NCBI RefSeq assembly: GCF_014189505.1
Contig: NZ_CP050301.1
Span: 1,557,501 to 1,621,500, forward strand
Length of the DNA: 64,000 bases
Source: Phyllobacterium sp. 628
Lineage (GTDB): Bacteria > Pseudomonadota > Alphaproteobacteria > Rhizobiales > Rhizobiaceae
Reading direction: 5' to 3'
Below, one piece after another: positions 5,786-59,631 of this stretch (the first letter of the stretch is position 1; each line of letters begins with the position of its first letter). The position numbers were made by a program, and so were the translations under genes. The notes beneath the pieces were generated by a model. That model was not told the origin of the DNA and searched no databases. It saw only the letters and a list, made by a program, of their open reading frames with translations.

Positions 5786-7042
5786 ATGCTGACGGACGCC
5801 GCCCTTAAGGCATTGAAACCAAAAGAGAAGATTTACAAAATCGCCGACCGGGACGGCATGTATGTGCGCGTCATGCCCAGTGGTGCGATCTCATTTCGCC
5901 TGGACTACAGGCTCAACGGCCGCCGGGAGACCGTCTATCTGGGCAGGTACGGGCGAGACGGCATCTCGCTTGCCCGAGCGCGCGAGAAGTGCATCGACGC
6001 TAGGCGCGCTGTTGGCGAAGGACGATCGCCGGCGATAGAGAAGCAGCGCGATAAGCGCCGCTTGAAAGAGGCCAAGAGCTTCGGAGAGTTCGGGGAGAAG
6101 TGGCTCACCGCCGCGCCGATGGCAGACAGCACGCGTGCCATGCGGCGTTCCATCTTCGAGCGAGAGCTTCTGCCTGTCTGGCGAAATCGTCTCCTGACTG
6201 AGATCACGCCAGACGATCTAAGAGCCCATTGCGGCGGTATCGTTGAACGTGGTGCCCCGGCGACGGCTATCCATGTGCGAGACATCCTGAAGCAGATCTA
6301 CGGCTTCGCCATCCTGCATGGTGAGAAGGTCGCCAACCCAGCCGACGAAGTGGGGCCGGCATCAATCGCCACTTTTGTGCCGAAGGACCGCTCGCTTTCG
6401 CCCTCCGAAATTCGGGTGATGCTGAAGCAGCTCGAACACGTCGCCACGCTTCCCACGATCCGTCTGGGAATGCGGCTCTATCTCCTCACGATGGTACGGA
6501 AGAGCGAACTGCAGGACGCGGTTTGGGACGAAGTTGACTTCGAGAATGCGGTTTGGACGATCCCGAAGGAGCGGATGAAGCGCTCGAAGGCGCATAACGT
6601 TTACCTGTCGCGCCAAGTGCTCGACATCATGATTGCCCTGAAGACCTGCGCGGGAAATTCAAGATACCTTCTGCCGTCGCGGTACGATGCAGATGCCCCG
6701 ATGTCGCGTGCCACCTTCAACCGGGTGACCTACGCAGTTGTCGAACGGGCAAAGGCGGACGGTTTGCCCCTGGAACCGTTTACAGTGCACGATCTGCGGC
6801 GGACAGGTTCAACTCTGCTGAACGAACTGGGCTTCAACAGCGACTGGATCGAAAAGTGCCTGGCGCATGAGGACGGGCGCTCGTCGCGCGGCGTCTATAA
6901 TAAAGCCGAGTATGAGGTGCAGCGAAGGCACATGATGCAGGAGTGGTCGGACATCTTGGACGCCTGGGTCGATGGCAAGAAGTACGTGCCAACGCTTATT
7001 CCGCCGTCGATGCCGATCTTGGCGCCCGATCCTGCTCTTTGA
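5786..7042 (+). CDS. int: P4-type tyrosine recombinase (element integrase)
   Basis: 418 residues. The N-terminal arm-binding DUF4102-type domain begins MLTDAALKALKPKEKIYKI. A SAM-like core-binding domain spans roughly residues 100-185. The catalytic domain has the box I arginine in VRKSEL near 235, HDLRRTGST (H-x-x-R) near 333, the second histidine in LAHED and the nucleophile tyrosine in YNKAEYEV near 372. All active-site residues appear present, so the enzyme should be functional. It points away from guaA, immediately inside the element, as expected for an integrase that targets the guaA 3' end. It has aggagg before the ATG. Confidence 0.93.
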   Translation: MLTDAALKALKPKEKIYKIADRDGMYVRVMPSGAISFRLDYRLNGRRETVYLGRYGRDGISLARAREKCIDARRAVGEGRSPAIEKQRDKRRLKEAKSFGEFGEKWLTAAPMADSTRAMRRSIFERELLPVWRNRLLTEITPDDLRAHCGGIVERGAPATAIHVRDILKQIYGFAILHGEKVANPADEVGPASIATFVPKDRSLSPSEIRVMLKQLEHVATLPTIRLGMRLYLLTMVRKSELQDAVWDEVDFENAVWTIPKERMKRSKAHNVYLSRQVLDIMIALKTCAGNSRYLLPSRYDADAPMSRATFNRVTYAVVERAKADGLPLEPFTVHDLRRTGSTLLNELGFNSDWIEKCLAHEDGRSSRGVYNKAEYEVQRRHMMQEWSDILDAWVDGKKYVPTLIPPSMPILAPDPAL

Positions 7043-11323: not shown

Positions 11324-11333
11324 AGGAATTCCC

Positions 11334-13947: not shown

Positions 13948-13956
13948 CTTTCGGGC

Positions 13957-13985
13957 GGGGAGCCGTGGCGTTCGCCACGACTCCC
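13957..13985 (+). promoter_or_regulatory. Intercistronic hairpin after the second binding-protein gene
   Basis: A stem gggag-c-cgtggcg closes over a two-base loop with cgccacg-a-ctccc. It has no T tract, so it is more likely an mRNA-stabilising or attenuating hairpin that lets the binding proteins be made in excess than a full terminator. Confidence 0.6.
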
Positions 13986-14018
13986 TCCCACTCCCTTCCT
14001 GTAAAAAAGACGAGCGAT

Positions 14019-15116: not shown

Positions 15117-15167
15117 TACAAATGTATATGCATCAAACCACGTTACGATTACTGTAAGGAGTTTAAA

Positions 15168-16226: not shown

Positions 16227-16282
16227 CAATCCCCACTACGGCAGAAGTTTCCTCACCATGGGCATGAAGGGGTAAAGCCGCC

Positions 16283-35322: not shown

Positions 35323-37080
35323 CTAGAGGCCGAGGTCGCGCTTGCGCCCCAGGCTCCACTCGATGCCGCCGCCATCGCGGGCGACGCCGGCGATGTGCTG
35401 GTCGAGCTTGCGTTCGATCTCGCGCGACCAGGGCACGAGTTGAAAGCCAAGCCCGTTGTCGATCATGGCGAAGCGGCCCGAGGAGAGCGTCAGCCGCCGG
35501 CGATAGGTGCCCGAGACATGCTCGCCGGCCGCAGCCTTCACATGAGGCAGGCCAGTCTCGGTCGACAGCTTCTCGCCCACGGCGTCCAACTCGCGGCGGC
35601 GCAGCGTGCTGAGGAGATCGCGCTGGAGCATGATGCGCTGGCCCTGGCGGCGACCGAGCCCTTCGTCAGCGAGATGTTCGGCACGGGCCTGCATTGCGTC
35701 GCGCGCCTCGCGGCCGAATCCACCCATGGAGAGCGGCATCTGCTCACGCTCCACCAGACGGTGGTCGAGCCACGTGGCGCCCGGCGCGGTGATCTGGCTG
35801 CGCAGATCGAGATCAGACCGGATGGCGAGCACCAGCGTTGGCCGCTGGTCCTCCGCCCCTCCAAAGCGCCGGACCTCGACAATGCCACCGGCAGGTGGCG
35901 TATGCTCAAAGGCTTCGATGCCGCGAAAGCGGACATGATGGGCGCGGCCGTCGATGCCGTCGATCACGGCATAGGCTTCGCCGGTCAGTTCGTCGTGGAG
36001 ACCCTTGTCGACCAGCCGGCCGATGATCGGCGAGCCGGCCCCGCCGTCGATCACATAGTCGGCGACGCTACGATCCTGGCCACGCTCTGTGAAGGCGCGG
36101 TGCATGGTCTTGATGACGTCGCCGCGCATGCCGAGGTCGCGAAGATGGGGTTCGGCTTCCATGCCGACCATCCACTCCCCGGAGCCAGCCGAGGTGGCGA
36201 GCCCCATCTTCTCCAGATGTTGAAGACGGCCGATCATCAGGCGGCGGATCTCCGGGTTGGCCGCACCGCTGGGATCGGGACGTAAGTCGATGGCGCCGAC
36301 ATCGTCGGCATGGCCCCGGATCTCGACATCGAGACGGGTCCACCGCTCCGCGGTGACCTCCTTCTCCAGGACGTTGCGAATTTCGTGCTCAGGTTTTGGG
36401 CCAAGCTCGATCGCCACCAGATCCTCGGCGCGTGACCGAAGGCCGCGGCTGATATAGTCGCGCGAGATCACGAGATCGGCCCCTCGCTCGTCCACACCGC
36501 GCACGAGCAGATGGACGTGCGGATTGTCGGTGTTCCAGTGATCGACTGCGACCCAGTCGAGCCGTGTGCCCAGATCGGCTTCCATTTGGCTCGCGAGATC
36601 ACGCGTGAAGGCCTTGAGGTCGGTCATCTCGCCGGCGTCCTCAGGCGAGACGATGAAGCGGAAATGGTGCCGGTCGTCCTTGCACCGGTCGGCAAAGGCG
36701 AGATCCTCAGTGCGATCGGAGCCGGCGTCGAACATCACGCCTTTTTCTCCGTCCCGGCTGACGCCTTCGCGCTTGAGGTAAGACAGATGCGCCGACAGCG
36801 GCGCGGAGCGGAAGGATCGGCCCTGATGGCGCACGACGCGCGCCTTGACGACGACGCGGCGGGTCGAGTTGAACAGGCGGCTGCGGCTGAAACTGCCGCG
36901 CCCCCGGCCAAAGGTCGAGCGACTATGCCCGGACGCGCGTCTGCCTGACGCCGAGGCGCCGGTATGGCCCGCCTTTTTCGCGGCCCGCAGCACCTGGTTG
37001 AGGAAGCTCTTCGCCTTCGGCGCACGCGTGGTTTTGATGCGGCCAGGCCGGACCCGAAAATCGCTGTCGCCCTTGGTCAT
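35323..37080 (-). CDS. DUF3363 relaxase (RlxS/VirD2-like)
   Basis: 585 residues. A basic N-terminus, then RHHFRFIVSPEDAGEM near residue 136 and DNPHVHLLVRGVDERG near 183, the histidine-rich metal-binding motif of MOB-type relaxases. A candidate catalytic tyrosine is in HLSYLKREG near residue 99. The C-terminal half (residues 290-585) is the DUF3363 region, including YAVIDGIDGRAHHVRF. It nicks the transfer origin and pilots the strand. The 28-base gap to traG suggests cotranscription. The 247 bases upstream are a candidate oriT. Confidence 0.92.
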   Translation of the reverse strand: MTKGDSDFRVRPGRIKTTRAPKAKSFLNQVLRAAKKAGHTGASASGRRASGHSRSTFGRGRGSFSRSRLFNSTRRVVVKARVVRHQGRSFRSAPLSAHLSYLKREGVSRDGEKGVMFDAGSDRTEDLAFADRCKDDRHHFRFIVSPEDAGEMTDLKAFTRDLASQMEADLGTRLDWVAVDHWNTDNPHVHLLVRGVDERGADLVISRDYISRGLRSRAEDLVAIELGPKPEHEIRNVLEKEVTAERWTRLDVEIRGHADDVGAIDLRPDPSGAANPEIRRLMIGRLQHLEKMGLATSAGSGEWMVGMEAEPHLRDLGMRGDVIKTMHRAFTERGQDRSVADYVIDGGAGSPIIGRLVDKGLHDELTGEAYAVIDGIDGRAHHVRFRGIEAFEHTPPAGGIVEVRRFGGAEDQRPTLVLAIRSDLDLRSQITAPGATWLDHRLVEREQMPLSMGGFGREARDAMQARAEHLADEGLGRRQGQRIMLQRDLLSTLRRRELDAVGEKLSTETGLPHVKAAAGEHVSGTYRRRLTLSSGRFAMIDNGLGFQLVPWSREIERKLDQHIAGVARDGGGIEWSLGRKRDLGL

Positions 37081-38490: not shown

Positions 38491-39036
38491 TCACCGCGTT
38501 GGCGCGCGCCATTCGAAGCGGCCGTTGCCGTCTTCATCGGTGTAGAGAGGCGTCGCGCGGCCGATGATCGTGTCGGTCGAGACGGGGCCGAAGTAGCGGC
38601 CGTCGAGGCTGTCGCGGACCTGCCAGTTCATCAGCAAGATGTCGCCAACTCCCAGCAGCCGGCAGCCTTGCCAACTCGGCAAGGGGCGGCCCGATCGGTC
38701 CCGCTCGAGCGCCTCGGCCATGTCCACGCCGTCGACCGAAACCATGCGGCCTATGCGACAGACGCGCTGCCCGGCAACGCCGGCGACGCGCTTCATCAGC
38801 GGCACACCGCGCGGCAGGTAACCGCGATCGGACAGGAAGGTCGCGAGCGGTTCGGGCGCATCGACGGCGACAAGGTCGGTGACCTCGGGCAGATCATCGG
38901 AATCGATGGCGTAGAGCCCGATCGGCACGCTCGCAGAGGCGTTCCAGATGAGCTTGAGCGGCAGTGGCAGGACGGCTGCCATGACGATGCCCATCGTCGC
39001 GAAATACGTCGCCATGACGTAGCCGAAGCGGCTCAT
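38491..39036 (-). CDS. traF: TraF-type S26 signal peptidase
   Basis: 181 residues. N-terminal membrane segment (ATYFATMGIVMAAVLPLPLK), catalytic serine in SASVPIGLYAID near residue 36 and catalytic lysine in GVPLMKRVAGVAGQRVC near residue 83. This S26 family protease matures the TrbC prepilin in related systems. Its start overlaps the DUF2840 stop by four bases. Confidence 0.92.
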   Translation of the reverse strand: MSRFGYVMATYFATMGIVMAAVLPLPLKLIWNASASVPIGLYAIDSDDLPEVTDLVAVDAPEPLATFLSDRGYLPRGVPLMKRVAGVAGQRVCRIGRMVSVDGVDMAEALERDRSGRPLPSWQGCRLLGVGDILLMNWQVRDSLDGRYFGPVSTDTIIGRATPLYTDEDGNGRFEWRAPTR

Positions 39037-39551
39037 GGCTCGGCCCTCCGGCGCAGCAGGAAGGCGCGATGCTGCTCGGCGCTGTAGGCGCGCGGCTCTT
39101 CGCCAGCGGTCAGGCGGTTGTGGACGTGGCGCCAGTGATCAGACGATACATCTGCCGGATCGACACCGATCGACTCGATCGCGTCGATCGCCTGCAGCAC
39201 CCGCTCGACCTTGGGCCAGCCTTCGATCTTCAGCAGGATGTCGCCACCGGGCCGCACGAAGGGCAGCGTCTGAAACGGCTCGCCAGTCCCGACAGCGCGC
39301 AAGATGTCGATGCGCGAGATGATCGTGCCGAACTCGTTCGACGCCCAGCGGACGAAGGCGAAAGTGCTGTTTGGCGCAAAGCCTATGACACGGCGGCGGC
39401 GATCGAGGATCTGCTCGTGGATGTCGTAGCCGAAGCGGATCCAGTTTTCGATTGTCTTCTCGATCCAGGTCAGCTCGACCAGTGTTGTGGACGGTGGCGG
39501 GCTGGCCGGCGCAGCGCTGCTGCGCACGCGAGGGGCCGCGATGCCGGTCAT
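39033..39551 (-). CDS. DUF2840 protein
   Basis: 172 residues with TLVELTWIEKTIENWIRFGY, RRRRVIGFAPNSTFAFVRWA and DVSSDHWRHVHNRLTAGEEP. DUF2840 genes accompany traF and parA in this class of elements; function unknown. It overlaps its neighbours on both sides by four bases, so it belongs to the parA-traF operon. Confidence 0.85.
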   Translation of the reverse strand: MTGIAAPRVRSSAAPASPPPSTTLVELTWIEKTIENWIRFGYDIHEQILDRRRRVIGFAPNSTFAFVRWASNEFGTIISRIDILRAVGTGEPFQTLPFVRPGGDILLKIEGWPKVERVLQAIDAIESIGVDPADVSSDHWRHVHNRLTAGEEPRAYSAEQHRAFLLRRRAEP

Positions 39552-39802
39552 GACGGGTCTCCCTCGATGGTGGGGAATTCACGCGCGAGCAGCTCGCGCA
39601 GCATCTCAGTGACGGTGATGCCGCGCTGGAAGGCGGCGATCTTGATGCGCCCGCGCAGGTCGGGCGTGATGTCGATGGTCAGTCGGGCGCTGTAACCGCC
39701 ATCGGCCGATCCGCGCGCCGAGGGCGTATCGGGCGCCTTGATCCAGCTTTCGGGGTCGGCGGGACGCGCGGCGAAACTGCGCTTCGAAATTCGCTCGGTC
39801 AT
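39548..39802 (-). CDS. Small ribbon-helix-helix protein next to ParA
   Basis: 84 residues. YSARLTIDITPDLRGRIKIA followed by AFQRGITVTEMLRELLAREF is a ribbon-helix-helix DNA-binding domain at the C-terminus; the first 40 residues are polar and probably disordered. In gene order (parA then RHH) it resembles ParG/Omega-type centromere-binding partners. It may therefore be the partition adaptor in addition to the large ParB-like protein at 53-55 kb. Overlaps both neighbours by four bases. Confidence 0.78.
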   Translation of the reverse strand: MTERISKRSFAARPADPESWIKAPDTPSARGSADGGYSARLTIDITPDLRGRIKIAAFQRGITVTEMLRELLAREFPTIEGDPS

Positions 39803-40437
39803 GACGCGATCCTTCCGACCTCGGCGCAGAGCGCAGCGATTTCACGGGCGGCGGGGCTGTCCTCATCCACTTCGGAAACGAGGCGGCCAGATTGCGCGGC
39901 GTCCGCGAAGGCAACGCGCTGGCCAACGGTGGCGGCGAGCACCGGTGGGTCGTGATCGGCAAGGGTCTCGGCCGTCGCGCGGGCGATGACGGTGCGCGCA
40001 GCACAGCGGTTCAGCACGAAGCGGGCGATGAGTTGCGGGCGATAGATGCGCGCCTCGCTGAGCAGCGATAGCATCTCGGCCGAGGCCCAGCCGTCGAACG
40101 GCGACGGCTGCACCGGGATCAGCACCAGATCGGCGGCGAGCAGCGCCGAGCGCATCAGCCCTGCGACACGCGGCGGACCGTCGATGACGATGTGATCGGC
40201 GTCGCGCGCCAGCTCCGGGGCCTCGCGATGCAGCGTGTCGCGCGACAAACCGACGACGCCGAAGAGCCTTGGATGCGCTTCGCGAGCGCGCTGCTGTGAC
40301 CAGTCCAGCGCGGAGCCTTGTGGATCCGCGTCGATCAGGGTGACGCGCTTCCCCTTGGCGGCCCATTCGCCGGCGAGATGCAGGGCCAGCGTCGTCTTGC
40401 CGACGCCGCCCTTTTGATTGAGGAGCGCGACGATCAT
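39799..40437 (-). CDS. parA: ParA-family partition ATPase
   Basis: 212 residues. Deviant Walker A NQKGGVGKTTLALHLAGEWA at residues 7-26, LIDADPQGSALDWSQQR near 36, and VIDGPPRVAGLMRSAL near 77. It lacks a DNA-binding N-terminus, the short type Ib form usually paired with a small RHH protein, as found next door. It keeps excised or replicating forms of the element stable. Start overlaps the repA stop. Confidence 0.93.
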   Translation of the reverse strand: MIVALLNQKGGVGKTTLALHLAGEWAAKGKRVTLIDADPQGSALDWSQQRAREAHPRLFGVVGLSRDTLHREAPELARDADHIVIDGPPRVAGLMRSALLAADLVLIPVQPSPFDGWASAEMLSLLSEARIYRPQLIARFVLNRCAARTVIARATAETLADHDPPVLAATVGQRVAFADAAQSGRLVSEVDEDSPAAREIAALCAEVGRIAS

Positions 40438-41558
40438 TCCGACTCTCCCGATGCTCGATCGAGAGGGAGACGCGGCGTGCTAGAAGTATCGGTGCGCGTG
40501 CCTTTCGATAGCGTCCCGGATGTCTTTTTGGGACGGTCGGCGATGTTTTCCACATCGCGCGCGTGTCTTCTAAAGTTAGATTCTGGGTTAGACTCTAAGT
40601 TAAGGGCGCGATTCCGGCTTTGTTTTTCGTGGCTTATGCCCTGTTTGGGTTCCCGATAGCACGTGCCAGCGGTTCCCGATGGCACGATAGTTCGGGTTCC
40701 CGATAGCACGAGGCTATCCACAGCTTGTCCACAGGGCACTGACGGTTCAAATGCCAGCAGCACGCGGCCGCCGATTTCGACCTCGATGAACAGCGTGTAG
40801 CCAGGCAGCGGCTGGCGGCGGATGATGTCGCGTAGTTCGAAGGCGAAGCGCTTGAACGGCGAGAGGCTGCCGGATTTCTGGTAGAGATGCCGGAAATCGA
40901 AGCGCCAACCGTTGCGCTGCTTGCCGCCGTGTTTGCGCACCAGACGGTAGAGCCAGCGGTCGAGGCCACCCGTGAGATCGAAATAGGCCCGGTCGATCGT
41001 AAGCACGAGCGCGTCATCGAGGACGGCGCGATAGAACCAGTCGGGGACAATCAGCTCGATTCCGGCCGGCTTGCCCTGGCGGTCGGTGCGCTCCTGCCAT
41101 TCGTTGATCCAGGAAAAGCGATGCCGGCGACCTTCCGTCGGCTGGCGGATCGAGGTGGCGACGGTGGTCGACTGGAGCCGGTCGAGGGCGGCCTTCAGCC
41201 GCTGGTAGTCACGCAGCCCGACGCCGCGGCCGATGAAGTTCAATATCTCATAGGGCGTCGCCGCCATCAGGCGCGAGGTGCGTAAGCCGGCGTCGCGTGC
41301 CTCGACGATCTGGCTTGCCGCCCAAATCAGGATGTCGGCATCCCAGATGGTGGCCATGCCATGATCGGGTACAGCCTCGACGCGGATCGACACGTCGCCG
41401 GCGACGAAGTCGATCGGCGCGGTGCGATGGGATTTGGAGAGGGAGAAGAACGGATAGGCCATGAGATCCTGCGTATCGCGAGGCGCGAAGTCGCCGGGAA
41501 GTGCGTGGAACAGATCGAGCTGTCCGCGCTCCGAGAGTGGGCGATATCGCGTCGTCAT
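40434..41558 (-). CDS. repA: RepA-type replication initiator
   Basis: 374 residues. Conserved start ERGQLDLFHALPGDFAPRDT, then MAYPFFSLSKSHRTAPIDF and the winged-helix part GRGVGLRDYQRLKAALDRLQ, RWLYRLVRKHGGKQRNGWRF, of the 'replication initiator protein A' family. The last 90 residues are polar, less conserved and encoded by DNA that contains iteron repeats and DnaA-box-like sequences. It should allow limited autonomous replication of the excised element. It is the first gene of a tightly overlapping operon with parA. Confidence 0.9.
   Translation of the reverse strand: MTTRYRPLSERGQLDLFHALPGDFAPRDTQDLMAYPFFSLSKSHRTAPIDFVAGDVSIRVEAVPDHGMATIWDADILIWAASQIVEARDAGLRTSRLMAATPYEILNFIGRGVGLRDYQRLKAALDRLQSTTVATSIRQPTEGRRHRFSWINEWQERTDRQGKPAGIELIVPDWFYRAVLDDALVLTIDRAYFDLTGGLDRWLYRLVRKHGGKQRNGWRFDFRHLYQKSGSLSPFKRFAFELRDIIRRQPLPGYTLFIEVEIGGRVLLAFEPSVPCGQAVDSLVLSGTRTIVPSGTAGTCYREPKQGISHEKQSRNRALNLESNPESNFRRHARDVENIADRPKKTSGTLSKGTRTDTSSTPRLPLDRASGESE
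40647..40735. promoter_or_regulatory. Iteron cluster and DnaA-box-like sites inside repA (oriV candidate)
   Basis: Three direct repeats of ggttcccgatagcacg start at 40648, 40671 (one mismatch) and 40695, spaced 23-24 bp, about two helical turns. Two DnaA-box-like sites, ctatccaca and ttgtccaca, follow at about 40714-40731. All lie within the 3' part of the repA coding sequence. Direct repeats at this spacing beside DnaA boxes and an initiator gene are the standard layout of an iteron origin. Confidence 0.72.
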
Positions 41559-41578
41559 TGAGAGGGAGCCCGAGACGA

Positions 41579-41860
41579 TCAGCGCGCGTAGCGGCCGGTG
41601 TGTGCAGGCGGCGCGGGCTCATGGCGCTTGGCGGGAAGCAGCGTGCCGCGCGGATCGGAGGTCGAGGTGACGGCGCCGCGTTCGGTCCAGGCCTGCAGGT
41701 CATCGACGGCGTAGACGACGCGGCCGCCGAGCTTGCGATAGGACGGGCCGGTCCCGTAGGTGCGATGCTTCTCCAGCGTGCGGGCGGACAGGCCCAGGAA
41801 GTGCGCTGCTTCCTGGGTGCGTAGAAAACGCGGCGGCAATGCGCTGAGATTGGGTGTCAT
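41579..41860 (-). CDS. AlpA/MerR-like helix-turn-helix protein
   Basis: 93 residues. PRFLRTQEAAHFLGLSARTL followed by EKHRTYGTGPSYRKLGGRVV and YAVDDLQAWTERG is the excisionase-type winged helix. It lies upstream of repA and may regulate the repA-parA operon or excision. The C-terminal tail is proline- and arginine-rich and unstructured. Confidence 0.85.
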   Translation of the reverse strand: MTPNLSALPPRFLRTQEAAHFLGLSARTLEKHRTYGTGPSYRKLGGRVVYAVDDLQAWTERGAVTSTSDPRGTLLPAKRHEPAPPAHTGRYAR

Positions 41861-42000
41861 GATCGGGCCTCCGTGGTGTCCGTGGGGGCCGCTGGCGTTC
41901 AGCGGCTGACGAAGGCCACGATGGCGAAGGGAAACCGGCGAGTTGCAGCGGGATTTTGGGGGGTACTAAATCCCCACACCATGAGCCGCGTGCGATCCGG

Positions 42001-42775
42001 CTAGGATCGGCGGCGATGACGAAGCAGTTTGCGATAGCCGCCCGCGATCATCGCGCGTGCACCGCCGAGGAGGCCTGCGACGACGTGGCGGGCGGAAGCG
42101 GCTTGCCATTCGTCACGGGTGAGTTTGCCGATGCGCAGTATAACCTCGGCGATCTCCTGCTGGGTCGCTCCGGCCCGAAATCCATCGATTGCTTGCAGCA
42201 TGCGCCGCGCGCGGGCCAGTTGCTGACGCGTGAGGCGCGTGTCGGGTGGAACGGCGCGCCCGTGAAGGGAGGCAAGCAGCCGAGCAACGGCTTCCATGCG
42301 ATCGAATCCCTCCATGCCGAGTGGGATCACCGCTACGAGTGGCTGCGCGGCCGATCCGTCGCGGGGAAGCGCCAGGTGCAGGCGTTGCCCGTTGCTCAGG
42401 TCGTGCAGGATGTGAAGGTTGTGTTCGGTGGGGTGATCCAGCGGTCGGCCGGGCTGCAGGAAGGGCGTGCTATCGGCAGCGATGGAGGCCGGCGCCGGCG
42501 TCAGTATCACCGATCCGGTATTCTCTTCCGGAAGCCAGAATACTTGCGCCTCGGCGGAGTTCAGAGCAGGGGCGACAAGGAAATCGCAACCCCCATTGGC
42601 TGCCGGCGCGCGCGATCAGCGATGGTGACTCTCTCGGCGCACCGCTGAGTTCGGCATAGTCGCGTTGATAGTCCTCGTTTCGTCGCAGCCATTCCCAGCC
42701 AATGTCTGGAGCGGTGAGCTGGTCGACGTAATCGTAACTTGATGACGATCGCCACCGGGATGTGTCGGGCGACAT
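42001..42775 (-). CDS. DUF6499/DUF2285 protein, apparent frameshift
   Basis: The first frame begins at the ATG at 42775 with SRWRSSSSYDYVDQLTAPDI and WEWLRRNEDYQRDYAEL, the DUF6499 module. The second frame, ending at 42001, has NSAEAQVFWLPEENTG, PLVAVIPLGMEGFDRMEA and RLTRQQLARARRMLQAID, the DUF2285 domain. The frames change between about 42575 and 42600, next to a five-C run at 42590-42594. Removing one base gives 257 residues, the normal size. DUF2285 proteins are predicted DNA-binding proteins of conjugative elements. Its break resembles the other homopolymer-linked breaks in this window. Confidence 0.75.
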
Positions 42776-47567: not shown

Positions 47568-48614
47568 CTATGCCGCAAGCGCCATGAAGCGCGCGACGTC
47601 CTGTGGCGCGATCTGCACCCGGGCCGCTGCCCGGAGGCTGCACAGACCCGCCAAGCGGAGATCCTCGTTGAAGTCGCTTAAGGCTGGAGACACCACGACC
47701 GCCTCGATCCCGGCCGCGTTCGCCCGTTCGATCAACGTTGCCATCGCACCGTCGCCGGCCGGATCATTGTCGCGGGCGATGTAGAGCCGGCGCAGCGTGT
47801 CGGGGAACAGGATGGCCGAGAGATGTGCCGCCGAGAGCGCCGCCGCCATTGGCATGGAGGGCAGCGCCATCCTGAGCGATAGCATCGTCTCGATACCTTC
47901 GCCTGCCGCCATCACTTCACCCGCCACACCGAAGCGAACGGCATGCCCCAGGAGGTCGCCCATCGCTCGCCTCGGCGTGTCGACAGGGGCCTTGTCCGTC
48001 CCGTCCGGGGCGAGCCAGGTGCGATGCGCGCCGGTCTGACGCCCGTCGAGATCGGTGACCGATGCAATCATCGCCGGCCAGGTCTCAGTCGGGGAATGCT
48101 CGTCGGGCCGATAATAGCAGCGGGGATGGAAGCGAAGGCTTCCGGTTTCGTGCAAATCGGTAATGCCGCGTGTGCGGAGATACGTCTTTACGAGTGTGCC
48201 CGAAATCGGCTGCGCCATGGCAAAGAGCCGTCGTGCCGCTTCCGGTGATCCTGATGGCGCCGGTGACTTACGCTCGCCACCATGCGGACGGTCCGGTTCA
48301 GGATGCGGCATCGACAGGAATGTGCGCGCCTCATCGGCGACGTCCTTGAAGTCGACAAAGCCGCAGCTCTCACGGATGACGTCCAGCAGGTCGCCATGCT
48401 CGCCAGTGGCGGCGTCGGTCCATTTTCCGGCTGCGCCCTTGCCGGTTTCGCCGCCCTTCAGCCGCACGAACATCGAGCGGCCGGGGGTGTTGCGCACGTC
48501 GCCGACCATCCAATAGCGGCCCTCGCGATGGCCGGAAGTCAGGTAATGGCGGCACACCGCCTCGGCCTGTCGGCCGAGACGGATCGCCAACTCGGAAGCG
48601 TCGTGCCGTGCCAT
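47568..48614 (-). CDS. Toprim-domain protein (primase-like)
   Basis: 348 residues from the ATG at 48614, which overlaps the helicase stop. An N-terminal zinc-finger-less primase-like part (YWMVGDVRNTPGRSMFVRLK) is followed by the Toprim fold: GVAGEVMAAGEGIETMLSLR with the catalytic glutamate, and RRLYIARDNDPAGDGAMATL with the D-x-D metal site. Such proteins are predicted DNA primases of mobile elements and probably act with the methylase/helicase that precedes it. Confidence 0.88.
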   Translation of the reverse strand: MARHDASELAIRLGRQAEAVCRHYLTSGHREGRYWMVGDVRNTPGRSMFVRLKGGETGKGAAGKWTDAATGEHGDLLDVIRESCGFVDFKDVADEARTFLSMPHPEPDRPHGGERKSPAPSGSPEAARRLFAMAQPISGTLVKTYLRTRGITDLHETGSLRFHPRCYYRPDEHSPTETWPAMIASVTDLDGRQTGAHRTWLAPDGTDKAPVDTPRRAMGDLLGHAVRFGVAGEVMAAGEGIETMLSLRMALPSMPMAAALSAAHLSAILFPDTLRRLYIARDNDPAGDGAMATLIERANAAGIEAVVVSPALSDFNEDLRLAGLCSLRAAARVQIAPQDVARFMALAA

Positions 48615-51600
48615 CACGCCACCTCTCGCTCACTGACGCGCTCGACGGGATAGCGCTCCAACACCTTGGTCAGGATCGCGCGGCCGGTCGTATCGGTCGG
48701 CACGAACATCCGCAGCTTCCACGAGATGATCTCGTGAAACAGGCCATAGGCGCGCAGGCGATCGCGCATGGCGTCGGTGAAGCCGGACAGCTCGATGCGG
48801 TTGGCGCCCATGACCCGGACACGACGAAGCTGGAGCCGCTCGGCGAGGTCGAGGATGGTCTTGCCGTCCATCAGCGCCATGAAGGCGTCGTCCGGCGTCA
48901 GGGTCGATGTGCCGGTGGCGAGCGCGCCGGCCACCCATGCGGGAGAGACCCGACGGCCGACGATGCGCTCGCCGTCGTCGGTCTGGAGCCGATAGACCCG
49001 CGTCGACTCGTTCGGCAGCCGCTTCCAGATCGGCAGCAACAACCCGCTGACGACGTGAATGGTGCTGTCGGCATACTCCGGCACTTCGGCCACCTCGGCA
49101 TCCCATGCCGCGGTGAAGCCCGTCCGGTCCGCGTCGATCCAATGGGTCTCGTCCATCATCCTGATGGGGAGGTTGTGCGCCTCCATCGGCCGGATCAGCC
49201 GGACGCGCCGTTCGATCTCGCCGTCGTCCAGCATGATGCTGGTGGTCGGGATCTGCACGGCGGCGCGGCCCGAGCGTTCGTTGATCAGCAGCCTGGCGCG
49301 CGGATCGTCGAGATGGTCGAGCGCCTCGGCCAGCATCACCGGCCGGTTGCGCTGGCGCTGGGTGATGGTCAGCAGCCGGGCTTCGGCTCCGGTGCCGGGA
49401 TGGACATGAATGGTCCGGCGATCGGTGACGATGAAGCTCTCGGCCTGCAGGGTCTCCAGCCCGACGTCATAGCTGCCCGACGCGATAGCGCCTTCTATCT
49501 TGGCGTTCAGCAGCCGCTCGAACGCCGTGAACAGGACACCCTGGAGTTCGATGGTCAGCGCCAGCAGCCGGTTGAGGAAGGTGGTGATCGGCGGCAACTC
49601 GTCCTTGATGCCGGTGGAATCGGTCAGCGACAGGCCGGTGGCGTCCTCGAACATCTGGAGCGAGCAGCCGTCGACCTTGCCGCGCACCAGCAGCAGATAG
49701 AGCTGGCGCAGCGCGTCGCGCGCATAGTGCGATTCCAGATTGTCCTCGGGCCGGAACAGGCCCTGACCGCCGGTCTGGCGCTGGCCGCGCGTGATCGCGC
49801 CCAGGGTGTCGAGCCGGCGGGCGATGGTCGACAGAAACCGCTTTTCCGCCTTCACGTCCGTCGAGATCGGCCGGAACAGCGGCGGCTGCGCCTGATTGGT
49901 CCGGTTGGTGCGGCCCAGGCCCTGAATGGCGGCGTCGGCCTTCCAGCCTGGCTCCAGCAAATAGTGGACGCGCAGCCGCTGGTTCCGCGCCGACAAATCG
50001 GCGTGGTAGCTGCGCCCGGTGCCGCCGGCGTCGGAGAAGATCAGGATACGCTTCTGATCGTCCATGAAGCCTTGCGTCTCGGCGAGGTTGGCCGACCCGG
50101 CACGGTTCTCGACGGCGAGGCGATCGATACCGCCGGGGCTGATCTTGCGGACGATGCGGCGCGAGCGTCCGGTCACCTCCGCCACGACGTCGGTGCCGAA
50201 GCGCTGGACGATCTGGTCGAGCGCCCCCGGGACCGGCGGCAGCGAGGCCAGCGTCTCGATCAGGCGGTCACGGCGGGCGACGGCGTCGCGGCTCTCGACG
50301 GGTTGGCCGTCGCGAAACACCGGCCGCGACGACAGGTTACCCTCGCTGTCGGTGAAGGGCTCGTAGAGCTGCACCGGGAAGGAATGGGCGAGATAATCCA
50401 GGACATATTCCCTGGGCGTGATGTCCACCCGGACGTCGTTCCATTCCTCGGTCGGGATCTCCGCAAGGCGGCGCTCCATCAGGGCTTCGCCGGTCGACAC
50501 GATCTGGATCACGGCGGCATGGCCGTCGGCCAGGTCCTGCTCGATCGAGCCGATCAGGGTCGGCGTCTTCATCGAGGTCAGGAGATGACCGAAGAACCGC
50601 TGCTTGGCGGATTCGAAGGCCGAGCGGGCGGCGGATTTCGCCTGGCGGTTCAGCGTGCCGGTGTCGCCGGTGATATTCGCCGCCTGCATCGCGGCGTCGA
50701 GATTGTTATGGATGACCGCGAAGGCCCCGGCATAGGCGTCGTAGATGCCGGTCTGCTCAGGCGTAAGCTGGTGCTCGAGCAGCTCGTATTCGACGCCGTC
50801 GTAAGAGAGCGACCGTGCCGTGTAGAGGCCGAGCGAGCGCAGGTCGCGGGCCAGCACCTCCATCGCCGCCACGCCGCCGTCCTCGATCGCCTCGACGAAT
50901 TCGGCGCGGGTCGAGAACGGGAAGTCCTCGCCGCCCCAGAGACCGAGGCGCTGGGCATAGGCGAGATTGTGAACGGTGGTTGCGCCGGTCGCCGAGACAT
51001 AGACAATACGGGCGTTCGGCAGGGCGTGCTGAAGGCGCAAGCCCGCTCGTCCCTGCTGTGAGGCGGCGACATCGCCGCGTTCACCTTTGCCGCCCGCGGC
51101 GTTCTGCATGGCATGGCTCTCGTCGAAAATGATCACTCCATCGAAGTCGGAGCCCAACCATTCGACGATCTGCTTGACGCGGGAAAGCTTACTCCCGCGG
51201 TCGTCGGACCGTAGCGTGGCGTAGGTGGTGAATAGGACGCCTTCCGAGAGGCGGATGTCCTTGCCCTGCGAGAAGCGCGACAGCGGCGTGACCAGCAGGC
51301 GCTCCATGCCGAGCGCCGACCAGTCGCGCTGGGCGTCCTCCAGCAGCTTGTCGGATTTGGAGATCCACACCGCCTTGCGACGGCCCTGCATCCAATTGTC
51401 GAGGACGATGCCGGCCGACTGGCGACCCTTGCCGGCGCCAGTGCCATCGCCGAGCATGAAGCCCCGGCGGAAGCGCACGGCGTTGGGCGCATTGTCCGGC
51501 GCGGCCGAGACGATGTCGAAGGTGTCGTCGAGCGTCCACGAGCCTGCGAGGAAGTCGGAATGCGCCTCGCCGGCGTAGATGACGGTTTCGAGTTGCGCGT

Positions 51601-52964
51601 CGGAGAGAAGGCCGTCGGTGACGATGTTGGTGGGCAGCCTGGGCCGATAGCTCGGCTTCGGCGGCGCGACCGAGGCCATCGCCACCGACTGCACGAGCTT
51701 GGTCGGGTGAGCTTGAGCGTCGGGAATACGGATCGCCTGCAATCCGTACTCTTCATAGATCGCGTCGGTGATGCGGCCGTCTTCGGCGGGCGTCCAGTCC
51801 ACGGTCTCATAGGCGAGTTCGACGCCCGCAAGCTCGGTAACGGTGCGGGCTGCTGTGGCGGCGGCGCGGGCGACATAGCCGCGAACGGTCCGCGGAGCCT
51901 GCGCGGGCGAAGCCACGGCGACGGCCACGGCCGGATCGATGGGCAGCCGCGCGGGGACGTGTTCGCCGATCCAGGTGATGAGTGTTGCGACATCGGGCGC
52001 GACGCCAGGCGAAGCCGGGAATGCCGCCGCATCATCGGCCGGCGCCTTGTCGATGACGGTCAGGCGGGTGTCGATAGTCGTGCCGTGCTTGGCATAGACA
52101 GCGCCGTCGATCGCGGCCGTGAATACGACCCGGCCTTGTTCCTGCAGGCGGGTGAATGCGGTCCGCCATGCCGGCGCATCGGGTGCGAAGCTCGCTCCGG
52201 TGATCGTCACGAGGCGCCCGCCGTCGACCAGGCGAGCGAGAGCCGAGGCGACGTGTCGATAGGCGGCCTCAGTCATCCGGCCCGTGACGTTCGCCATCAC
52301 GGAGAACGGCGGGTTCATCAGGATGACGCTCGGCACGATGCCCGCGTCGAGATGATCGTCGATCTGGGCCGCGTCGAAGCGGGTGACGGGAATGGCCGGA
52401 AAGAGGTGGGACAGGAGATCGGCCCGGGTGTCGGCCAGCTCGTTCAGGACGAGCGCGCTCCCGGTGATCTCCGCTAGGACAGCGAGAAGGCCCGTGCCGG
52501 CGGACGGCTCCAGCACGCGATCGGCTGGTGTGATAGCCGCAGCGGTTAGCGCGGCGACGCCGAGCGGGAGTGGCGTCGAGAACTGCTGGAAGGACTGGCT
52601 TTCCTCCGATCTCCGCGTGTGGGTGGGAAGAAGGCTGGCGATCTTCACCAGCATCGGCAGGGCAGCAGCCGGAGACCCGGCTTTGCGTAAAAGCGCGTTG
52701 CCGTATTTGCGCAAGAAAAGGATCGTCGCTACTTCGCAGGCCTCATAGGCCGTCTTCCAGTCCCAGGCGCCGGAGGTGTCGGATGCGCCGAAGGTGGTTT
52801 TCATGGCGGTGCGCAGGGCAGCGGCATCGACCCGCTGGCCGTGTTCGAGATGGGGAAGCAGTAGCTGCGCGGCCTGGAAAATCGCGGCAGAAGGATCGGG
52901 GACATGGCCGAGGGGGAAGCAGCGCGGCGAGCGGAGCTGCCGCGGATACAGGGATCGTCGTCAT
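48614..52964 (-). CDS. N6-adenine methylase/strawberry notch-type helicase fusion, apparent frameshift near start
   Basis: One 1,396-residue frame runs 48614-52804. The native start appears to be the ATG at 52964: MTTIPVSAAAPLAALLP is followed in the next frame by LGHVPDPSAAIFQAAQLLLP and RVDAAALRTAMKTTFG. The frame change is in the five-G run 52912-52916, and removing one base gives 1,449 residues. Domains: methylase motif I LEPSAGTGLLAVL and IV VILMNPPFSVM (about residue 215), SF2-type helicase Walker A LGDGTGAGKGRQSAG (about 508) and IIFDESHAMQNA (about 611), then GLGRTNRTNQAQPPLF of the strawberry notch C-terminal helicase. Such proteins are common in conjugative element backbones and may modify or remodel incoming DNA. 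The internal ATG at 52804 could be used if the break is real. Confidence 0.85.
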
Positions 52965-53108: not shown

Positions 53109-55244
53109 TCATTCGGCGGCGATGAGGTGACCTTCGTCGTCCTCGGAATCGGCCGGGGCTTCCTCTTCGTCATCGGTGCTGAGGAATTCCGGCAGCTCGG
53201 CCCCCTCAGTTTCTCCGCCGCTCTCAGCGTCCGATGCAGAATCGCCTGCGAGGTCTGCGAGCCGAAGCGGCTCGGGCAGCCAGCCGGTGTCGGCCAACAG
53301 CCGCTCAGCCTCCTTGGCCATGTCACCCTTCTTCAGATGATCGATGAGCTGCGCCGACGCCTCGCCCTTGGCTTCCCGCACCGCTTCGAGGATGCGTGGC
53401 TTGGTCACCCGACCGAGATAGTTGTCGATGGTCGGGCGCCATCCCACTTCCGCCATGTCGAGACCGACGGCGCGCGCGATCCGGTCGGCCTGCTTCAGCC
53501 GACGTTCCAGCCCGTGCTGTGAGATGCCGGAGCCGCCATAACGGTCGACTTTCTCGGAGAGCGCATTGACGCCGTAGGAGACGCAATGCGCCAGCAGGGC
53601 GGTCCGGCTGACGTCGTCGAGATCGACAAGCCAGTCCCAAAGGGCATCCTCGTCCTGCGGGATGTCGGCCTCCCAGCCTTCCTGCCGTTCCGCCACCGAC
53701 TTGGCGGACGTGCTGTCCTTTAGGTCGGCGGCCTGGGCGGAGAAGAAGACGTGGCGGACCGACACCTCCAGGCACCCGCCGGAAGACGAGGTCCGGTGGA
53801 AGGTGTCGAGCACGAGCTTATGCAGCAGCGCCGTGATCGCGACGTGCGGGTTGCCGGCGAGCGCATCCCGCAGAGCGAGGGTGCGGTGCGCCGTCAGTTC
53901 GCTGACCAAGCGTTCGGGCAGCGGCTTGATGACATCGTCCTCCTCATCCTCCGGTTCGGGCTTACCGCCGATGGTGATGACCGCCCGCATCGGCTGCGCG
54001 TTCGGCGCCGCGCCTTCGGTCTCGCCGTCGCCGTCGATCTGAGACGCGATCGGCGCCTCGTCCTCGGGACGGACATAGCCGCGCTCGATGGTCAGTCGGC
54101 CCGAGCTGTCGATGCTGACGAAGGCGCCGGCGCGCGCGATCTCGGCCGGATCGTAGAGGGTCGGCCAGTTCTGGAAGGCGGCGATCGCGGTCTCGATCTC
54201 CTCGAGCCGCAGATCGACCGCCTCCGGCAAATCCTCGCCATCGTCATGCTCGGCGTAGAGCCGATCCAGCTCCTCGGTCAGGGCCTCGTAGGCGGTCTGC
54301 TCGTCGGCGGTGAGTTCGGGGCGCTCGCCCGCGATCCGGCGCAAGCCGGTGGTGTGGCCGTAGGGGAAGTCCAGCGCGGCATCGATCCAGCGCCAGCCTT
54401 CGGCCGCGATCTCCTCAGCGGCTGTGCCGAGCTTCGCGGTGGCGAGGCTGTCGAGCAAGGCCGGGTCCTGCAGCCACCCGCCGTCGTCGGCCTGGAACAG
54501 GTCGCGAAGGGTCGCGCCGCCGGCCGCCTCATAGGCTTCGACCCCCACGAACTGCGCACGACGATCGGACGCGCGGACAGCACCCTCAGTCAGCATGCGG
54601 CGGATCTCATAGGGCTGGCGGCTGTAGGATCGCTGGATGGTTTCCCAGACCTCCATCTGCCGGGCATGGTCATGCGACACCGTGAAGGCCATGAGCTGGT
54701 CAAGCGCGATGCCGTCCTCGGCATAGACGTCAAGCAGCGCCGGAGCGACCGAGGCGAGCCGCAGGCGCTGACGGACCACGGCCGGGGTCACGTAGAAGCG
54801 GGCGGCGATATCCTCCTCGCCCATGCCGCGCCCGATCAGCGCCTGGAAGGCCTTGAACTGATCGAGCGGATGGAGCGCCTCGCGGTGGACGTTCTCGGCG
54901 AGGCTGTCTTCCTCGGCCGGGATCGCGGAGGTCGCGTCGCGGACGTTGCAGGGGATCGGTGCGGTCTTCGCGAGACGCTTGGCCTTGACCAGCAGTTCGA
55001 GCGCCCGGAACCGGCGACCGCCGGCCGGGACCTCGAAGATGCCGGTTTCCACGCCCTCGCCGTCGAGCACAGGGCGAACGTTGAGGTTCTGAAGAAGACC
55101 GCGGTGGCCGATATCCTCGGCTAGTTCGGGGATCGAGACGCCGGCCTTGGTCTTGCGGACGTTGGCCTGGCTCAGGATGAGCTTGTTGAAGGGGATGTCG
55201 CGACGCTCGCCAAGGGACGCGATCTTCTGAACGGCGGTTGCCAT
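53109..55244 (-). CDS. parB: Large ParB/RepB/Spo0J-family protein
   Basis: 711 residues. ParB N-terminal domain: LILSQANVRKTKAGVSIPEL, VPAGGRRFRALELLVKAKRL and SLAENVHREALHPLDQFKAF. The HTH part contains IAARFYVTPAVVRQRLRLAS. The long C-terminal region (residues 250-711) is acidic at the end (DDEEEAPADSEDDEGHLIA) and much longer than in chromosomal ParB (about 300). This long form is typical of the DUF932/helicase cluster of these elements; a role in DNA modification or replication as well as partition is possible. The start has ggag upstream and a structured leader. Confidence 0.88.
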   Translation of the reverse strand: MATAVQKIASLGERRDIPFNKLILSQANVRKTKAGVSIPELAEDIGHRGLLQNLNVRPVLDGEGVETGIFEVPAGGRRFRALELLVKAKRLAKTAPIPCNVRDATSAIPAEEDSLAENVHREALHPLDQFKAFQALIGRGMGEEDIAARFYVTPAVVRQRLRLASVAPALLDVYAEDGIALDQLMAFTVSHDHARQMEVWETIQRSYSRQPYEIRRMLTEGAVRASDRRAQFVGVEAYEAAGGATLRDLFQADDGGWLQDPALLDSLATAKLGTAAEEIAAEGWRWIDAALDFPYGHTTGLRRIAGERPELTADEQTAYEALTEELDRLYAEHDDGEDLPEAVDLRLEEIETAIAAFQNWPTLYDPAEIARAGAFVSIDSSGRLTIERGYVRPEDEAPIASQIDGDGETEGAAPNAQPMRAVITIGGKPEPEDEEDDVIKPLPERLVSELTAHRTLALRDALAGNPHVAITALLHKLVLDTFHRTSSSGGCLEVSVRHVFFSAQAADLKDSTSAKSVAERQEGWEADIPQDEDALWDWLVDLDDVSRTALLAHCVSYGVNALSEKVDRYGGSGISQHGLERRLKQADRIARAVGLDMAEVGWRPTIDNYLGRVTKPRILEAVREAKGEASAQLIDHLKKGDMAKEAERLLADTGWLPEPLRLADLAGDSASDAESGGETEGAELPEFLSTDDEEEAPADSEDDEGHLIAAE

Positions 55245-57103: not shown

Positions 57104-57346
57104 AGCGCGTCTGACCCCGACAGATGGGTAATGCGGTGTGGCATCTGATATCTTCGTGCGACGTTATCATCTTTAATGTAGCACGAAGCTGACATAAGGT
57201 GTCATCGCTTCCTGCCTCCAACGGCTTGAGCTCGAACCAGAGCGACAACCTCTTTGATCTGGCACCTTTCCTCGCCATACGAAGAGTGATACAAATCCTC
57301 GGATAACAACTCCTATGTTCCGAGTTTTCGTATCGTGCCACCATCC

Positions 57347-57952
57347 ATGTCCCAACGCCAGATTGCCCATACCGTACTGACCGCGCGCGGAATTTCGCGC
57401 CTGGCGGAGCTGCGCGAGGCGGGCGTAACGGCCGCAACCATGAGTCGCATGGAACGCGACGGAGAGGTGCTTCGGCTCGCGCGAGGACTTTATCAACTTT
57501 CCGATGCGCCCCTCGACGTTCACCACAGTCTCGCAGAGGCCGCCAAACGGATTCCCAAAGGCGTGGTTTGCCTCGTTTCGGCCCTGGCTTTCCATGGTCT
57601 GACCGATCAGCTCCCGAGGCAGGTTTGGCTCGCCGTGGGTCAGAAGGACTGGTCCCCGAAAGCCGAAGGCACGCCCATTCGGCTGGTACGTTTCACGGAT
57701 CGCCTCCTAACGGAGGGTGTTGAAACCCACGCTGTCGAGGGAGTGGCCGTGAAGGTCTTCGGCGTCGCGAAGACGGTCGCCGATTGCTTCCGCTATCGGA
57801 ACAAGATTGGCCTGTCCGTGGCGATCGAAGGCCTTCAGGAAGCGCTGCGTCAGCGCAAGACGACGCCGGGCGAGATTGCCAGGCAGGCTGAGCGAGGAAC
57901 AGTCGCCACGATCGTTCGGCCCTATCTCGAGGCGCTGACCGCCAATGGCTAA
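57347..57952 (+). CDS. abiEi: AbiEi antitoxin of a type IV toxin-antitoxin system
   Basis: 201 residues. An N-terminal winged helix (LTARGISRLAELREAGVTAA, MSRMERDGEVLRLARGLYQL) is followed by the AbiEi C-terminal domain with ALAFHGLTDQLPRQVWLAVG and KTVADCFRYRNKIGLSVAIE. AbiEi represses its own operon and neutralises the toxin without direct contact. The ATG at 57347 is preferred over a GTG at 57335. Upstream inverted segments atacgaa (57277) and ttcgtat (57327) may be operator half-sites. It overlaps abiEii by eight bases. Confidence 0.88.
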   Translation: MSQRQIAHTVLTARGISRLAELREAGVTAATMSRMERDGEVLRLARGLYQLSDAPLDVHHSLAEAAKRIPKGVVCLVSALAFHGLTDQLPRQVWLAVGQKDWSPKAEGTPIRLVRFTDRLLTEGVETHAVEGVAVKVFGVAKTVADCFRYRNKIGLSVAIEGLQEALRQRKTTPGEIARQAERGTVATIVRPYLEALTANG

Positions 57953-58817
57953 GGAGATCAAGAATATCGGCGCCTCGGTTCGCGCCCGCCTGTTGCAGGT
58001 CTCCAAGACGAGCGGCCAGACCTTCGATCTTGTCCTGACCCGTTTCGCGCTGGAGCGGCTGCTCTTCCGGCTCAGCCAGTCACCCCACGCCGACCGCTTC
58101 GTTCTGAAGGGCGCGATGCTGATGATGAGTTGGTTCGATGACCCGCACCGCGGCACGCGCGACCTTGATCTGCTGGGCTTCGGCGATCCGAGCGCGGAGC
58201 CGATGCTGGCGACGTTTCGGGATATCCTGGCGCAGGGTGCGGCCGACGGTGTGGAGTTCGACGTCGATGCGCTTCGTGTCGATCGAATCCGCGAAGAACG
58301 GGAATATGGCGGCCTGCGACTGCGGACAACAGCATCGATCGGCGGCGCCCGGATCAGTCTGACGATCGATATCGGCTTTGGCGATGCGGTGGAGCCCGGC
58401 GCCGAAGAACTGGACTATCCGTCCATGTTGGACTTTCCCATGCCCCGGCTGCGGGGTTATGCGCGCGAGACCGTCATTGCCGAGAAATTCCAGGCGATGG
58501 TGGCGCTGGGACGGGCTAATACCCGGATGAAGGACTTCTACGACATCTGGATTCTCAGCCGGTCTTTCACCTTCGACGATGACAGGTTGCCCCGCGCGAT
58601 CGCCGCCACTTTCGCGCGGCGCGGAACGGCAATACCTCAAGACCTGCCGGATGCGCTGACGTCGGTCTTCGCCGAGGACGCGCAGAAGAAGCGACAATGG
58701 CGCGCTTTCGTCGAGGGAGTAGTAGCCCACGATCCGGGGGAACTTGCCGTTGTCATTAAAGATATTGCCACTTTCCTCATGCCTCGAGTGACCTCCACCC
58801 GGAGCTTGGGTCAATGA
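57945..58817 (+). CDS. abiEii: AbiEii nucleotidyltransferase toxin
   Basis: 290 residues. The nucleotidyltransferase core shows RFVLKGAMLMMSWFDDPHRG and TRDLDLLGFGDPS (D-x-D) near residues 51-77, then ISLTIDIGFGDAVEPG and AETVIAEKF-type helix (ARETVIAEKFQAMVALGRAN, TRMKDFYDIW). The family transfers nucleotides to RNA and causes abortive phage infection or growth arrest. Together with abiEi it is a complete AbiE pair. It is the first gene block of the defence island. Confidence 0.9.
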   Translation: MAKEIKNIGASVRARLLQVSKTSGQTFDLVLTRFALERLLFRLSQSPHADRFVLKGAMLMMSWFDDPHRGTRDLDLLGFGDPSAEPMLATFRDILAQGAADGVEFDVDALRVDRIREEREYGGLRLRTTASIGGARISLTIDIGFGDAVEPGAEELDYPSMLDFPMPRLRGYARETVIAEKFQAMVALGRANTRMKDFYDIWILSRSFTFDDDRLPRAIAATFARRGTAIPQDLPDALTSVFAEDAQKKRQWRAFVEGVVAHDPGELAVVIKDIATFLMPRVTSTRSLGQ

Positions 58818-58838
58818 AGGTGACATTCTTCTTGATAG

Positions 58839-58868
58839 CTGTCAGAAAACGTCATAGATTTCTGACAG
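58839..58868. promoter_or_regulatory. Palindromic operator before the DUF6088 gene
   Basis: ctgtcagaaa (58839-58848) and tttctgacag (58859-58868) are perfect 10-bp inverted arms, 10 bases apart, and the right arm overlaps the ribosome-binding aggag of the gene starting at 58878. The position fits autorepression by the DUF6088 product. Confidence 0.65.
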
Positions 58869-58877
58869 GAGAATGGC

Positions 58878-59471: not shown

Positions 59472-59631
59472 TCCCCACCTCCGGCAGTTGATCTTCGCCC
59501 GGGGTTCATTCCCTCCGGCTTTAATTCCACAAGAGACTATGTATTCCGCTGTTCTGCCGCAGATGCCTGAAGGCTGTTCGCCTGATCGAATGCGAGATCA
59601 GGAAATAGCCAATATCGGAGAAATAGAATGA
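59464..59631 (+). CDS. Short ORF bridging the DUF6088 and hsdM genes
   Basis: 55 residues (MADPHLRQLIFARGSFPPAL ...) starting in the end of the DUF6088 gene and ending with a TGA that overlaps the hsdM ATG. It has no recognised family and may be the stub of the missing toxin gene or a translational bridge. The double overlap is the only support. Confidence 0.35.
   Translation: MADPHLRQLIFARGSFPPALIPQETMYSAVLPQMPEGCSPDRMRDQEIANIGEIE

Follow-up and report, generated by a model that had tools for sequence, protein, structure and literature searches.

Iteron origins such as those of mini-F, R6K and RK2 are served by initiators of the Rep_3/RepE/pi type, and their arrays usually lie upstream of, or apart from, the rep gene. 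Mini-F and R6K share with the locus described here, which lies in a 64,000-nucleotide stretch of the Phyllobacterium sp. 628 genome (the window), a two-winged-helix initiator fold, short direct repeats, DnaA boxes and AT-rich 12- or 13-mers; the window array differs from theirs in having three copies only, at fixed steps of 24 and 23 nt, in the 3' coding part of the initiator gene. An origin within the initiator gene is known from phage lambda, where iterons and an AT-rich region lie inside gene O; lambda is a different kind of element, likened to the window by layout and not by comparison of initiators. The DnaA-like plasmids of Rhodobacterales are also said to carry oriV within the replicase gene, as in the window, their replicase being named apart from the RepA type; we set them beside the window by description only.

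In repABC plasmids, oriV lies within repC and its AT-rich part is essential, according to the relevant passages of PMC3155836. Both these plasmids and the window thus place the origin inside the initiator gene, but the same passages report the repC origin without iterons or DnaA boxes, and its initiator is of another family. For the IncU plasmid RA3, the relevant part of PMC9455977 maps oriV to the 3' end of repB, where, as in the window, an iteron-like repeat (r3) at the end of the initiator gene is followed by an AT-rich region; unlike in the window, a single truncated r3 suffices and transcription activates it, and the likeness is drawn from layout. Tn4371-family ICEs have in common with the window a backbone of repA, parA, an S26 peptidase, a VirD2-type relaxase, TraG and trb genes (PMC2789088, in its account of the backbone), and no origin is described for them in the relevant passages of that paper. 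Their beta- and gammaproteobacterial relatives carry the same array, but between repA and parA, a comparison made through relatives and not with Tn4371 itself. A mini-replicon of pPDL2 with an RPA-domain RepA replicates, and its oriV is reported to precede the repA gene (PMC3516476, in part); replication of SXT/R391 ICEs has also been published (PMC4489591, in part). Among the matches listed in the open-licence literature, we found no origin described for the Tn4371 repA module and no paper combining Tn4371 with iterons. Origins inside initiator genes are already in print (repC, IncU repB).

On sequence and fold evidence, the array, its DnaA-like boxes and its AT-rich part are very probably the RepA-dependent oriV of a Tn4371-like ICE. 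In this reading, the three repeats at 24/23 spacing would be bound by RepA, whose two-winged-helix fold is that of initiators such as RepE and pi, with host DnaA at the flanking boxes; RepA would melt the AT-rich 12-mers next to the array and bring the replicative helicase onto the excised circle. In the lineages with an overlap, the repA frame crosses the array and ends where parA, or whichever gene comes next in the operon, has its overlapping start codon, and ribosomes would bridge the origin. We assign a probability of roughly 0.83 to this reading as a whole, that is, an oriV of a Tn4371-like ICE with RepA at the iterons and a lineage-specific repA overlap bridged by ribosomes to the next start codon.

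Parts of the candidate origin and its initiator

The original prediction held that three repeats at 23-24 spacing lie inside the 3' coding part of repA with two DnaA-box-like sites beside them, and both statements hold. Three exact copies of GTGCYATCGGGAACC (repA strand) occupy 40648-40709 inside the repA frame and beyond the RPA domain, at steps of 24 and 23 nt, and the array starts 81 nt past the end of the Pfam domain match (Table 1). These iterons have no mismatch to GTGCYATCRGGAACC, and the remaining seven matches in the window carry 3 mismatches each. Across the 5.25-Mb genome, the exact copies are these three only, with one-mismatch sites at three other places. A de novo triple-repeat finder gave the array a score of 26 out of 28, against a maximum of 19 in 60 mononucleotide shuffles of the region. 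A search for an RNA element across 39000-42500 gave no Rfam match at the gathering score.

Table 1. Positions in the window of the candidate origin, repA and associated genes
Feature	Position	Strand	Remarks
Tyrosine integrase	5786..7042	+	Arm-DNA-bind_3 and Phage_integrase; candidate ICE integrase
DUF3363 protein	35323..37080	-	weak Relaxase match (below Pfam cut-off); presumed relaxase
parA	39799..40437	-	parA-type partition ATPase; next operon gene
ATGA	40434..40437	-	repA stop overlapping parA start codon
repA	40434..41558	-	RPA-family replication initiator, 374 aa; domain at residues 27-256, then C-terminal extension through the origin
Third DnaA-like box	40546..40554	+	TTTTCCACA; beyond the AT-rich stretch, on the opposite side of the array from the first two boxes
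AT-rich stretch	40567..40606	-	three tandem 12-mers (approximate length) TTAACTTAGAG / TCTAACCCAGAA / TCTAACTTTAGA; presumed DNA-unwinding element
Iteron 3	40648..40662	-	GTGCTATCGGGAACC; repA frame 2
Iteron 2	40671..40685	-	GTGCCATCGGGAACC; repA frame 0
Iteron 1	40695..40709	-	GTGCTATCGGGAACC; repA frame 0
DnaA-like box	40714..40722	+	CTATCCACA; 5' of the array in repA orientation; from sequence and conservation
DnaA-like box	40725..40733	+	TTGTCCACA; from sequence and conservation
HTH_17 gene	41579..41860	-	upstream of repA

The DnaA box consensus is TTATNCACA, from which the boxes CTATCCACA and TTGTCCACA each differ at one position; the third box was absent from the original prediction. Read along repA, boxes TGTGGACAA and TGTGGATAG come first, followed by the iterons, the AT-rich 12-mers, box TGTGGAAAA and ATGA. 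The AT-rich stretch begins about 40 nt past the last iteron copy, and the GC minimum of the profiled region (40300-40999) falls at 40575-40624. Regularly spaced direct repeats near rep, adjoined by DnaA boxes and an AT-rich unwinding region, are what is found in an iteron-type oriV, and the candidate origin is narrowed to about 190 bp. Taken singly, boxes do not exceed chance in the window, where TTWTNCACA has 1 exact match (TTTTCCACA) against 1.02 expected, and the DnaA-like boxes are credible because they are conserved across relatives. The array has a box within 1 mismatch of TTATCCACA on its 5' side in 68 of 92 distinct in-gene cases and in 13 of 30 cases downstream of repA, and best matches in control windows average 3.65 and 4.01 mismatches. 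At the position of the third box, beyond the AT-rich part, at most 1 mismatch is seen in 52/92 in-gene arrays and in 2/30 downstream arrays, where this box is weak; these are figures without control windows. The maximum AT fraction in 30 nt past the array averages 0.70 for in-gene and 0.68 for downstream arrays, compared with 0.48-0.49 in controls.

RepA matches the RPA family (PF10134) with 302.7 bits against a cut-off of 27, over profile positions 1-228 of 228. This is the only Pfam family matched, and RepA does not fall with the RepC (RP-C) initiators of repABC replicons. An AlphaFold2 (AF2) model of the RPA domain (pLDDT 79.7, pTM 0.79) matches domains 2-3 of RctB (Z 17.4), a plasmid Rep with iteron dsDNA and DUE ssDNA (8aan_A, Z 12.9), RepE54 on its iteron (1rep_C, Z 12.7) and pi on its iteron (2nra_C, Z 11.6); unrelated structures score 5.5-5.8 in the same comparison. 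By fold comparison, RepA thus belongs to the two-winged-helix (WH1-WH2), Rep_3-like initiators. At the sequence level the Rep3_N profile is weak (9 of 12 members at E up to 10, best 0.002), and only the fold comparison was informative: a search of solved structures by sequence returned two unrelated matches (E 0.24 and 0.69) and a second search none. Since the fold resembles those of iteron-bound RepE and pi, it supports the predicted binding of iterons, and we infer from the model that RepA binds the repeats.

Geometry of the array and selection on its DNA

Searching genome contigs with the RPA domain as query yielded 584 confirmed relatives, of which the best 80 (88-96% identical) were kept. 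The original prediction pointed to homologous repA genes as the place where the repeats should recur, and they do so in 80/80 of these best 80 of 584 loci, with the same spacing and frames. Their offsets past the domain are +81/+105/+128 in 77 of these best 80, with two starting at +78 and one at +72. Further loci came from 149 related genomes (29 loci; 41 genomes with a match), from plasmid records (13 loci), and from 385 class genomes (27 with a match) and 398 phylum genomes (36 with a match), which together gave 57 loci. The 41 of 149 related genomes with RPA repA genes are a count of the whole PF10134 family. Many loci are closely related and some were entered twice (e.g. G122, G481, G121 and G254), and three rows (L001, L125 and L165) are the window itself.

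The geometry is near-invariant. Among 148 rows with RepA at least 55% identical, a motif-free finder recovered steps of exactly 24/23 in 141 and of 23/24 or 23/23 in two, and no accepted array in five (L097, L103, L112, L172 and L176). Below 55% identity, an array was accepted in 5 of 32 rows, at different spacing, and the other 27/32 had none accepted. The sequence of the repeat shifts with RepA (GTGCYATCRGGAACC, then versions ending in GGGACC or beginning with TCGTGCTATCAGGA and ATCGGGACTTCGGG), and the geometry stays nearly constant.

The repeats could in principle reflect a protein repeat in the RepA C-terminus, since copies 1 and 2 share frame 0 and both encode V-L/P-SGT. The original prediction named conserved protein repeats as its refutation, and we exclude them because copy 3, in frame 2, encodes CYREP and because the array region has no codon periodicity. 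In 76 distinct in-gene arrays, the commonly variable iteron positions are 5 and 9 in all three copies, despite their differing codon positions; the third codon positions of copies 1 and 2, except position 9, are at least 97% fixed, and copy 3 varies additionally at position 7 (7/76). In 11 arrays downstream of repA, where the array is non-coding, a single row varies at position 5, and a single row at position 9, in copy 1 and likewise in copy 3; copy 2 is invariant at both and varies at position 10 (4/11). An earlier AF2 model built from 34 close sequences places tail residues 275-374 below pLDDT 50, which is weak evidence because that model was poor overall (pLDDT 42.7). The chance that the array is a protein repeat is next to nil.

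Substitutions likewise show that selection acts on the DNA. Across 84 distinct sequences (one of which, L065, was counted with 20 fewer domain codons), differences at fourfold sites were 0.454 in the RPA domain; the boxes and iterons gave 0.146, the spacer 0.472, the AT-rich part 0.071 and the tail beyond it 0.410. Strong codon periodicity is confined to the RPA domain in this set, where differences at codon positions 1/2/3 were 0.084/0.052/0.392, compared with 0.174/0.150/0.178 over the iteron part and 0.176/0.160/0.164 over the AT-rich part. The tail beyond the AT-rich part shows little periodicity (0.478/0.444/0.543), and its amino acids are hardly constrained.

The repA frame across the array

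The array is not inside repA in all relatives. The window's clade has a frame that crosses it, and so do L168 and a clade of about 60% identity. One group of alphaproteobacterial relatives has its repA stop some 120 nt past the domain (about +120), with the same array starting at about +128. The beta- and gammaproteobacterial relatives, among them Cupriavidus, a Klebsiella plasmid and pKAZ5, are in our view the Tn4371 group proper; there the repA stop lies at +72 to +78, with the array next and parA after it. A state (array in or out of the frame) was given to 150 of 180 rows, with a score of at least 22 as threshold and with L097, whose array is doubtful, and L103 (score 21) kept as out. On a tree of 56 rows clustered at 92%, three changes of state suffice, against a mean of 18.7 for shuffled labels, with 0 of 500 shuffles as low; the starred branches of the tree force two changes. 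The tree is a quick one, with long outgroup branches, open forks and the out row L166 beside the window's clade, and the downstream position in outgroup plasmids is no more than a hint that overlap is the derived state. Having the origin overlap repA is a trait specific to certain lineages, and it is not needed for function because many relatives have the same origin after the repA stop. The prediction of an iteron origin lying within the coding sequence of repA is supported: the array falls inside the repA frame, is conserved and is accompanied by boxes and an AT-rich part. The accompanying claim that the overlap by itself links RepA translation to occupancy of the origin is not supported as worded, in view of those same relatives, and having one origin inside and outside its gene offers a natural comparison.

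L168 combines features of both arrangements. Its RepA is 72.7% identical and its array starts at +126, as in the downstream-origin type, and its frame still crosses and ends in ATGA at a DUF2840-like gene. It looks like an independent gain of overlap.

Where the frame crosses the array, its end is uniform. Six of 112 in-gene rows run off the contig, and each of the 106 others (89 distinct) has its first in-frame stop on an overlapping ATG or GTG, as ATGA or GTGA in 101 and as TGATG in five. The gene started there is parA in 92 rows and DUF2840-like in nine; in the remaining five (L089, L100, L135, L164 and L175) it is unidentified, short or damaged, and that of L100 may be DUF2840. Since the repA frame is by definition open as far as its first stop, only the place of the stop and the closure of other frames count as evidence here. 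Over the stretch from array to stop (mean 98 codons), the other two forward frames average 2.67 and 5.31 stops and are open in none of 81 distinct window-type sequences; in the 60% clade they average 2.12 and 5.25 stops and are open in none of eight. Of the reverse frames, one is open there in 13/81 and 4/8, respectively. In 38 out rows, the repA frame averages 3.03 stops over 270 nt from the array.

These figures bear on whether the overlap is mere read-through, with a stop lost by chance and the frame left open through composition. Such an account would fit the small codon periodicity of the tail, the scarcity of stops in high-GC sequence and the occasional open reverse frame, but it sits badly with the stops in both other forward frames, with a first stop on the next start codon in every row that has one and with the three changes of state that the tree requires, and we consider it unlikely. 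Under the bridging reading, translation would cross an otherwise untranslated origin and couple repA to parA or the next gene, and the C-terminal extension seems to be selected for reaching that start codon and not for its amino acids. A further and rather doubtful suggestion is that in several ICE lineages the frame was stretched over the origin so that ribosome and transcript traffic became part of origin control. Such an interlock would hold the origin closed during repA-parA expression and open it once RepA shuts down its own operon; it would keep the origin silent in the chromosome and let it fire after excision, and it would leave the encoded tail nearly free and the frame constrained.

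The surrounding element and related plasmids

The repA neighbourhood has the layout of Tn4371-type ICEs as set out in the relevant parts of PMC2789088 and PMC8627217. Around repA lie the HTH gene, parA, a small RHH gene, DUF2840, an S26 peptidase, SLT, the DUF3363/relaxase gene and TraG, with a TrbE/VirB4-type protein, TrbK, TrbL, VirB8, CagX and TrbI, and the family's backbone order of repA-parA, TraF-like peptidase, VirD2-type relaxase, TraG and trb (PMC2789088, in its account of that order) is present, as it is in the pCHQ1 and Indioceanicola regions. The order from HTH through repA and parA to DUF2840 and the S26 peptidase is common to the window, pCHQ1 and an Indioceanicola plasmid. No useful att repeat was found in the 80 kb beyond the window, nor were the ICE ends found, so the ends and excision are unproven. 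Repeats of 17-29 nt at 3694-3801 recur at two places 59-75 kb past the end of the window, and with more than two occurrences they resemble dispersed repeats and not att sites.

With parA starting at the array and an RHH-fold gene following parA, the array might instead be a parS-like partition site for ParA and a small partner, and not an origin. The array and AT-rich part are, however, kept where no parA follows repA (pMLb), and the RepA fold fits iteron binding, which makes a partition site very improbable.

Another possibility is that RepA binds the repeats solely in copy control, incompatibility or autoregulation and that replication of the ICE takes another route, such as rolling circle from oriT. 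Iterons commonly serve in control, and a ParA gene adjoins the array. A further rep gene is present in three of four related plasmids checked (three families): pMLb has an RP-C gene besides the RPA repA, the Indioceanicola plasmid has a second RPA gene that also matches Rep3_N, and pCHQ1 matches Rep3_N above the cut-off and, in part, RPA a second time. The repA-array module therefore need not replicate these plasmids, and the relevant part of PMC2789088 proposes Rep/Par as a stabilisation system, with rolling-circle synthesis at transfer. A control site, however, needs neither DnaA boxes nor AT-rich 12-mers, and the AT-rich part, at its fixed distance, exceeds even the iteron part in fourfold-site conservation; we regard a purely regulatory role as quite unlikely. 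For the origin reading, replication of the excised ICE is a reasonable inference, and if the origin is conserved and complete, Tn4371-like ICEs would retain a way of replicating like that of plasmids.

Several records carry the module, or parts of it, in other settings. The fourth of the plasmids checked, the 28.6-kb Rhizobium plasmid T1470, recorded as circular (L112:3330-3524, NZ_CP148097.1), encodes a RepA 75% identical and has no iterons; an IS5 transposase gene starts directly after its repA, and searches for RP-C, RPA and Rep3 gave no other initiator. The 17.85-kb BAL398 record (NZ_CP133113.1), marked linear and accompanied by a second matching record of 17.93 kb from the same strain, looks like part of an ICE, either an assembly product or a free ICE form, and because it is linear and resembles a part of an ICE we do not count it as proof of replication. 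Modules of repA and array also occur on large clinical enterobacterial plasmids: a large clinical Klebsiella plasmid (NZ_CP147600.1) carries repA, array and parA beside other replicons, and others were found by tblastn.

Elsewhere in the window, the region near the integrase (8406-19253) encodes a PEP mutase-family enzyme, a GntR/UTRA regulator, a class I/II aminotransferase and an ABC transporter ATPase and permease, likely cargo for phosphonate use. A large Strawberry-notch-like helicase protein (AAA_34 and Helicase_C_4; 48614-52804) and a ParB_N-like protein (below the Pfam cut-off; 53109-55244) lie on the same strand as the transfer genes. At 57335-62593, an AbiEi/AbiEii type IV toxin-antitoxin pair is followed by the type I restriction-modification genes HsdM and HsdS.
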